Positions 13,740 to 14,583 of a DNA stretch of 38,333 nt are shown here, piece by piece. The DNA is from a virus. Every line of letters starts with the position of its first letter. The stretch's first letter is position 1. Location of the stretch: the IMG/VR virus record IMGVR_UViG_3300020474_000043, positions 1-38,333 of that record; one strand, written 5' to 3'. A program made the position numbers and the translations under genes. The notes beneath the pieces are model-generated. The model was not told the DNA's origin. It did no database searches and saw only the letters and a program-made list of their open reading frames with translations.

Positions 13740-14397
13740 TAATAGAAAAAAGCGTAAAGAACAGAAAGCAAGCAAACCTAACGTACTGGAGGCTAAAACT
13801 CAAAATCAAAAAAATTATATACGTTCAATTATAGAAAACGACGTAGTTTTTTGTACTGGACCTTCTGGTAGTGGTAAATCATTTATCGCCGCTGGAATCG
13901 CAGCACATAAGATTTTAAAAGACGAGATAGACATGATAATTGTAACTCGTCCTTTGGTGTGTGCGGGTAAAGACATTGGATCTTTACCGGGAGAATTGAA
14001 TGACAAAATAAAACCATACCTACAACCTATGGAGGAAAACTTACGTTACTTTTTAGGTAGAGATAAATTTGGTTATTATTATAATCAAAGAAGGATTAGA
14101 TTTGAACCCCTAGAAACCATGAGAGGATCGACATTCCATGACTCGTATATGATATTAGATGAAGCTCAAAACTGTACACTGGAGCAGATTAAAATGTTTG
14201 TTACGAGAATGGGAAACCACTCTAAAGTACTAGTAAATGGTGATAATAAACAAACAGATATATATAAGTATACTGGATTAGAAACATGTATGCAAAAATT
14301 ATCTAATGTTACGGGGGTCGGAATCTCGCAATTAGAGTATCATGATATACAGAGGAACGGAATTATAGGAGCAGTTTTATACGCATTAGAGTCTTAG
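13714..14397 (+). CDS. phoH: PhoH-like P-loop ATPase
   Basis: A 227-residue protein of the PhoH family. It has the Walker A motif GPSGSGKS (49-56), then IIVTRPLVCAGKDIGSLPGE, the DKIKPYLQPMEENL region, ETMRGSTFHDS and the Walker B-like MILDEAQNCT, all family hallmarks. PhoH-like ATPases are widespread in marine phages. They are thought to act on RNA or in phosphate stress, but their exact role is unsettled. The start ATG 13714 is chosen because GAGG (13705-13708) lies five bases upstream; a GTG directly before it is also possible. The stop codon lies inside the left arm of the first structured repeat at 14391. Confidence 0.93.
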   Translation: MVLAAQAHNNRKKRKEQKASKPNVLEAKTQNQKNYIRSIIENDVVFCTGPSGSGKSFIAAGIAAHKILKDEIDMIIVTRPLVCAGKDIGSLPGELNDKIKPYLQPMEENLRYFLGRDKFGYYYNQRRIRFEPLETMRGSTFHDSYMILDEAQNCTLEQIKMFVTRMGNHSKVLVNGDNKQTDIYKYTGLETCMQKLSNVTGVGISQLEYHDIQRNGIIGAVLYALES

Positions 14398-14448
14398 AGT
14401 TCAGAATGTTATCTAGTTTATTCTAGATTTAGCCCATCACTCTAAGAC
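14391..14448 (+). repeat. Structured hairpin repeat, copy A1
   Basis: Outer arms GTCTTAGAGT (14391-14400) and ACTCTAAGAC (14439-14448) are perfectly complementary (10 bp). Inside is an inner stem ATCTAG/CTAGAT (14411-14416 / 14423-14428) with loop TTTATT. Between the stems both strands are unpaired and follow TTYA-N5-TYA. The left arm contains the phoH stop codon. A CAACATAG linker follows. See the other copies at 14459, 14532, 25554 and 25617. Confidence 0.85.
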
Positions 14449-14458
14449 CCAACATAGT

Positions 14459-14520
14459 CCCGGTTAGGGTTCAGTGAGTTATCTAATTAATTTTAGATTC
14501 ATTTCTTCATCCTAGCCGGG
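14459..14520 (+). repeat. Structured hairpin repeat, copy A2
   Basis: The longest copy. The outer stem of 11-12 bp (CCCGGTTAGGG with TCCTAGCCGGG, two G-T wobbles) is closed by a T-A pair. The inner stem is ATCTAA/TTAGAT around TTAATT; both sides differ from the common ATCTAG/CTAGAT in a way that keeps pairing, which is direct covariation evidence. The bubble again reads TTCA-N5-TTA and TTCA-N5-TCA. A CACAATACA linker follows. Confidence 0.85.
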
Positions 14521-14531
14521 AACACAATACA

Positions 14532-14583
14532 GCCAGATTCATATCATAACCTAGTTAATTCTAGATTCACCATGTTATCTGGC
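14532..14583 (+). repeat. Structured hairpin repeat, copy A3
   Basis: Outer arms GCCAGA (14532-14537) and TCTGGC (14578-14583) plus one T-A pair; inner stem ACCTAG/CTAGAT with one C-A mismatch around TTAATT. The bubble reads TTCA-N5-TAA on the left and TTCA-N5-TTA on the right. The CACAATACAA linker that follows runs directly into AAGGA, the ribosome binding site of the FmdB-like gene, so this copy lies in that gene's 5' leader. Confidence 0.85.

Follow-up and report, generated by a model that had tools for sequence, protein, structure and literature searches.

We describe a hairpin that almost certainly defines a new family of cis-acting structured RNA modules on phage transcripts, present in five copies in the window (a 38.3-kb IMG/VR phage fragment) and found as 53 distinct elements on about 25 IMG/VR phage contigs. 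What is new is the fold and the family, and the functional kind may prove familiar. The fold is well supported and has a short testable core (UCA-NNN-XX-UY, occurring twice) that brings a built-in compensatory-mutation test with it. The original prediction, which had proposed a new hairpin family under structural selection and no function for it, is supported by these sequence-based analyses; it had missed the probable two-fold symmetry, the evidence for RNA of the sense strand, the placement beside promoters, terminators and tRNAs, and the hypervariable bulges.

Fold and covariation of the element

All five predicted hairpins were confirmed in place, each with an outer and an inner stem as claimed (Table 1). 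Every element runs from an outer stem (6-15 bp across elements, 7-13 bp in the window) through a 10-nt strand, an inner stem of 6 bp (usually ATCTAG/CTAGAT) and a loop (5-8 nt, 6 nt in the window) to a second 10-nt strand. These 10+10-nt internal loops had been taken as unpaired, which proved wrong, as they contain two further covarying pairs. Both strands share one motif, T1 C2 A3 N4 N5 N6 X7 X8 T9 Y10, and X7X8 of the first strand is the reverse complement of X7X8 of the second, in the combinations TG/CA, AG/CT, TA/TA, CA/TG, CG/CG, GC/GC, GT/AC, AC/GT, GA/TC and TC/GA. The fold is thus an outer stem, a 3-nt bulge, 2 bp, a 3-nt bulge on the opposite strand and the inner stem. The near-invariant A3 and T9 could supply two additional pairs that leave N4-N6 as the 3-nt bulges; since invariant columns cannot covary, we infer this pairing as probable, and the fixed UCA/UY nucleotides at each meeting point of bulge and stem suggest that the two halves are related by a genuine two-fold axis.

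Table 1. Elements, variable bulges and neighbouring genes in the window.
Feature	Position	Strand	Description
phoH (PhoH-like)	13711..14397	+	upstream of A1; phrog_170, E 1e-66
Element A1	14391-14448	+	outer stem GTCTTAGAGT/ACTCTAAGAC, 10 bp; strands TCA-GAA-TG-TT and TTA-GCC-CA-TC; inner stem ATCTAG/CTAGAT; loop TTTATT
Element A2	14458-14521	+	outer stem TCCCGGTTAGGGT/ATCCTAGCCGGGA, 13 bp; strands TCA-GTG-AG-TT and TCA-TTT-CT-TC; inner stem ATCTAA/TTAGAT; loop TTAATT
Element A3	14532-14583	+	outer stem GCCAGAT/ATCTGGC, 7 bp; strands TCA-TAT-CA-TA and TCA-CCA-TG-TT; inner stem ACCTAG/CTAGAT, 5/6 paired; loop TTAATT
NNN bulges	14404-14406, 14432-14434, 14474-14476, 14502-14504, 14542-14544, 14570-14572		A copies; further bulges in B copies
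FmdB-like zinc-ribbon gene	14603..14935	+	downstream of A3; phrog_1076, PF09723
PAP2-family gene	24812..25507	+	upstream of B1; PF01569
Element B1	25554-25607	+	outer stem TGACGGAT/ATCCGTCA, 8 bp; strands TCA-GCT-TA-TT and TTA-TGA-TA-TC; inner stem ATCTAG/CTAGAT; loop TTAATT; precedes the DNA polymerase III alpha gene
Element B2	25617-25668	+	outer stem GCCAGAT/ATCTGGC, 7 bp; strands TCA-ATT-CA-TT and TCA-AGA-TG-TT; inner stem ATCTAG/CTAGAT; loop TTCATT; just 5' of polymerase start codon
DNA polymerase III alpha, N-terminal part	25692..27260	+	downstream of B2; phrog_405, E 6e-113
RNase_T/DnaQ-like exonuclease ORF	27250-27930		between polymerase N part and C part
DNA polymerase III alpha, C part	27902-29485
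Glycosyltransferases (several)	29848-32618

The first covariance model (R1) held only the two stems, and the XX pairs were noticed after its search. They were tested by a DNA pattern that did not require XX: both pairs were present in every IMG/VR match whose outer stem reached 5 bp or more, and not in matches that lacked the outer stem. A structural scanner run over 2.55 Mb returned 42 distinct elements, and none when the sequence was reversed, while a looser scanner with no demand on XX gave 61 matches in 3.9 Mb (7 in reversed sequence), 53 of them with both XX pairs; in this looser scan the mutual information of the two pairs reached Z of 25.7 and 29.4, every other pair of loop columns stayed below 6, and no correlation was seen between the two NNN bulges. 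The two stems were 98.5% paired in the first 20 sequences, against 81% when partners were shuffled and 9-46% when they were slid. The predicted selection for structure was borne out in a larger alignment of 32 sequences (99.4% of cells paired, equalled by 0 of 500 shuffles; XX pairs almost always Watson-Crick, with no G·U there), whose pair counts are biased towards pairing by the training of the second model (R2) on XX-selected elements, a bias that the R1 search, the XX-free pattern and the looser scan do not share. A wider pattern added only two more loci with the full structure and one with a single mismatched XX pair. This last (L418, 1245) is a probable further member, with AC/TT as its XX, and lies 8 nt after a TATAAT.

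The change in outer arms among the five copies had been read as covariation, which is a difference between paralogues as far as these copies go; among distant orthologues the arms do show compensatory changes, so that the covariation is not merely paralogue difference. At any single orthologous site the outer arms are nearly invariant among close strains, with compensatory changes appearing among more distant orthologues. At the site between polymerase and exonuclease, the outer stem changes from AAGT/ACTT to AGGT/ACCT and XX alternates between TA/TA and TG/CA, while at site C, in the 3' UTR of one zinc-ribbon-like gene, XX is CA/TG, TA/TA, AG/CT and TG/CA in four phages. The element upstream of the polymerase in phage G040 has an inner stem ACTACG/CGTAGT and an outer stem CGCGGT/ACCGCG.

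Two lines of evidence indicate that the element acts as RNA. Stem mismatches on the motif strand comprise 25 G·U against 3 A·C, phylogenetic non-independence inflating these numbers and not their direction, and every element whose orientation could be called is in sense with the gene or tRNA that precedes it, no copy being clearly antisense (three elements, at G036 30.6 kb, G037 33.7 kb and in L418, fall outside the call). Both observations speak against an attC, REP or other mobile DNA hairpin, in which pairing would be selected in DNA regardless of strand.

Distribution and placement on phage transcripts

Covariance-model searches recovered intergenic homologues in many related and distant phage contigs beyond this genome, as the original prediction had anticipated. 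With R1, at E up to 1, elements turned up in 11 of 35 records, of which about 8 were strong; with R2, at E up to 0.1, they turned up in 20 of 50, of which about 18 were strong. These E-values are rough, and the contigs come from uncultured aquatic phages. Records hold 1-7 elements (7 in the 120 kb of G001, 6 in G036, 5 in G043, and 4 each in G005 and G047). Orthologues of A1 occur in L009, L010-L014 and L085, and the B2 site is also occupied in L423-L427, L458, G016, G005, G040 and G042/L267; a survey of 80 polymerase loci found an element upstream of the gene in six, besides the last four of these. Presence is patchy at orthologous sites, for example at one and the same place upstream of the polymerase, and three close relatives (G003, G004 and G012) have no element; element-free relatives have a PhoH 94% identical. 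Among bacterial and archaeal genomes, 30 pattern matches were obtained, none combining outer stem, inner stem and XX. Comparison with phage isolates gave no blastn match for the phoH-fmdB region, no match for the site C protein and only distant matches for the polymerase, so the element could not be traced to any cultured phage. We found no description of the motif in the literature, and, in agreement with the claim of novelty, none of the 4227 families of Rfam 15 gave a match overlapping any element at gathering or loose thresholds.

Judged from their genomic surroundings, the elements lie at RNA ends and junctions. Some probably stand at transcript starts, since at 7 of 34 sites an exact TATAAT ends 7-12 nt before the hairpin base, the intergenic background being 0.9% (P 1.7e-8, for a distance window chosen after seeing examples); the best case is L253 with TTGACA-17-TATAAT-7. 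Most sites have no nearby promoter, and a TATAAT-type promoter at that distance is lacking from all five window copies. Others stand at transcript ends, as at site C, where in G001, G011 and G040 (and, by eye, G039) the element lies between the stop codon and a separate GC-rich hairpin with a T run; these terminator-side copies represent one ancestral site, and in relatives lacking the module there the terminator directly follows the stop codon. The elements themselves are mostly not intrinsic terminators, as a T run is absent after 44 of the 53 and the site C copy precedes a separate terminator.

A further group adjoins stable RNAs, at 1-6 nt from tRNA-Glu, -Asp, -Leu and -Arg. In G043 an element lies between tRNA-Glu and tRNA-Asp, in G005 one follows tRNA-Arg, and in G047 elements flank tRNA-Leu on both sides and follow tRNA-Arg, and another falls within a match to permuted tmRNA (RF04321), in its intervening segment. 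The elements are not themselves tRNA or tmRNA, since ARAGORN and Rfam matches adjoin them and only the tmRNA_permuted match spans one, in that intervening segment. That tmRNA (L333 1779-2155, minus strand, in G047, which is IMGVR_UViG_3300020438_002496) is phage-borne, with the tag GVENYAMAA; G005 has an ordinary tmRNA (L242 850-1187). Finally, copies lie between genes of operons, as at window sites A and B and at the polymerase/exonuclease site, and G040 has one upstream of a gene whose product resembles a single-strand-binding protein. The three A copies had been placed in the gap between phoH and fmdB, which holds apart from the 5' arm of A1, which overlaps the phoH stop codon (TAG, 14395-14397), and the linker CAMMATACAA said to follow each copy fits loosely in A2, A3 and B1 and poorly in A1 and B2. 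The window polymerase (25692-29485) consists of three overlapping ORFs, and in L252, L257 and L262 an element sits between the polymerase N part and the exonuclease ORF.

Candidate functions and known RNA systems

We favour, with a probability of roughly 0.45, an RNA processing or end-protection signal read by a symmetric, probably dimeric and most likely host factor. Such an RNA-binding or RNA-cleaving factor would fix or protect RNA ends, so that the module might cap the 5' end at start sites, mark junctions for processing between genes, tRNAs and tmRNA pieces, and protect or trim the 3' end before terminators. Capping suits 5' leaders and 3' UTRs, and processing suits tRNA and tmRNA spacers. 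Since the elements sit at the beginnings, ends and cutting points of phage RNAs, the partner is likely a factor on which phages depend in shaping their transcripts, and it may be a bacterial RNA-binding or RNA-cleaving protein not recognised so far. No protein was found that is common to element-bearing records and missing from G003, G004 and G012, which points to a host factor or to the RNA alone, the records being fragmentary enough for a phage partner to be missed. A search of 12 phage records gave no phage RNase III, so that any such enzyme acting on the elements would need to come from the host; one of 13 incomplete records gave no tRNA-splicing endonuclease (PF01974), and no phage RtcB was found. 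Against the processing or end-protection reading, element-free relatives manage without the module at the same sites, one function must span 5' leaders, 3' UTRs and discarded tRNA or tmRNA spacers, and a 2-bp centre between bulges is a non-standard RNase III substrate.

The RNase III processing signals of T7 are, like the elements, phage hairpins of about 50-60 nt at polycistronic gene junctions, and in R1.1 symmetrical protein-contact boxes serve a dimeric enzyme, with non-paired positions limiting cleavage (PMC8708148, PMC4858673). A single box set needs about 12 bp (PMC8708148); the elements have an outer stem of 6-15 bp and an inner stem of 6 bp, interrupted by bulges around the 2-bp centre. 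Unlike T7 signals, they combine opposed 3-nt bulges round a strict 2-bp centre with fixed UCA/UY and no long regular duplex, and their places also include start sites, the neighbourhood of tRNAs and a tmRNA spacer.

The central helix of the canonical archaeal bulge-helix-bulge (BHB) motif, the target of splicing endonucleases, is 4 bp long, against 2 bp in the element. The BHB has symmetrical 3-nt bulges on opposite hairpin strands and is recognised mainly by geometry (PMC12397907), and the element would resemble it in its opposed bulges, with three variable nucleotides per strand flanked by the covarying XX and the invariant, probably paired, A3-U9. It differs in having only two covarying pairs, in that position 6 varies with no regular pairing to U9, and in its carriers, which look like bacterial phages and in which, as noted, the PF01974 endonuclease was absent. 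Tentatively, and with clearly less confidence than in the processing or end-protection reading, we entertain a previously unknown RNA-handling system of bacteria and phages, in which a symmetric bulge-2bp-bulge RNA would work with a dimeric factor (an analogue and not a homologue of the BHB) or by itself, as a ribozyme or polymerase-binding RNA, at transcript starts, ends and tRNA/tmRNA junctions, its bulges diversifying faster than neutral sites.

The main rival, which we hold to be unlikely, is antitermination, in which the nascent hairpin would bind host RNA polymerase in the manner of HK022 put and let it run through the pauses and terminators of phage operons that are long or untranslated. 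Both are phage cis RNAs that can sit just downstream of a promoter, as putL does, and put acts without a phage protein (PMC9378689), which matches the lack of a phage partner here; many elements also start at a transcript 5' end, lie beside untranslated tRNA or tmRNA genes or stand directly upstream of terminators. However, put RNA is a non-symmetric pair of stem-loops of ~70 nt with an RNA triplex that binds the beta' zinc-binding domain (PMC9378689), and the elements, each a single hairpin with an apparent two-fold axis and no two adjacent stem-loops of that kind, are not put RNAs. Readthrough would moreover be harmful at site C, where the terminator faces a convergent gene, and tandem triple copies would be unexpected for an element with the reach of put, which is at least 10 kb.

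Less likely again is a passive stability or leader structure that would shield ends from exonucleases or space genes with no specific partner; position adjoining RNA ends and stable stems would fit, but such a structure would not need near-invariant UCA on both strands, strict Watson-Crick XX and fixed 3-nt bulges across distant phages. A site bound by a phage repressor, or by a regulator of translation of the downstream gene, seems improbable. It would explain the conserved position ahead of DNA polymerase in distant phages and the G040 copy before the single-strand-binding-like gene, but would leave copies between stop codon and terminator and in tmRNA spacers unexplained, and no co-occurring protein was seen. 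We regard a self-cleaving ribozyme of a new class as very improbable, for all its small conserved core between two stems and its sites beside tRNAs and gene junctions, since two-fold symmetry implies two equivalent sites and no known family matches.

Equally improbable is a mobile or recombinogenic DNA cassette (PeSL-, REP- or attC-like) in which selection would act on hairpins in the DNA that relocate or reshuffle genes, to which presence or absence at orthologous sites, tandem copies and a small gene between A2 and fmdB in L014 would point, and against which stand the G·U bias, the sense-only orientation and outer arms that belong to a particular site and are passed on along with it; an inspection that was not systematic showed no recombinase or transposase associated with the elements. 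PeSLs of T4-like phages, as cited in PMC4503421, are promoter and stem-loop modules in intergenic DNA with patchy presence whose stem-loops are terminators; the elements differ in mostly lacking T runs and promoters, and a PeSL cassette of stem-loop terminator plus early promoter was rejected. tRNA mimicry, a CRISPR-like repeat and attC were dropped, as neither fold nor motif fits.

Variable bulges and turnover of copies

Positions N4-N6 differ at 15 of 24 positions between the window and L010, where four-fold degenerate sites differ at 0.235 (P 5e-5), and at 11 of 12 between the window and L014, where such sites differ at 0.241 (P 1.5e-6); in the same comparisons the stems differ at 0.02-0.05 and the loop at 0-0.08. 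The excess over four-fold sites is suggestive of diversification or local hypermutation, with the qualification that codon use may constrain synonymous sites. The NNN are about half G+C in genomes of 35-42% G+C. Strain-specific recognition of these letters is unlikely because copies inside one genome differ, and the bulges may serve as geometry only, which would leave their letters free to vary.

The copies themselves also come and go. A3 is missing without trace in L009 (2612-2697), the small gene of L014 (5760-6001) replaces A3 between A2 and fmdB, and B1 is truncated in G016 (L245), which is gain or loss of modules between repeats. Element-free relatives have other, unrelated-looking intergenic hairpins near fmdB (L016, about 2880-2960; L067-L069, upstream of fmdB), one of which is followed by a similar AATACAAAGGA leader.
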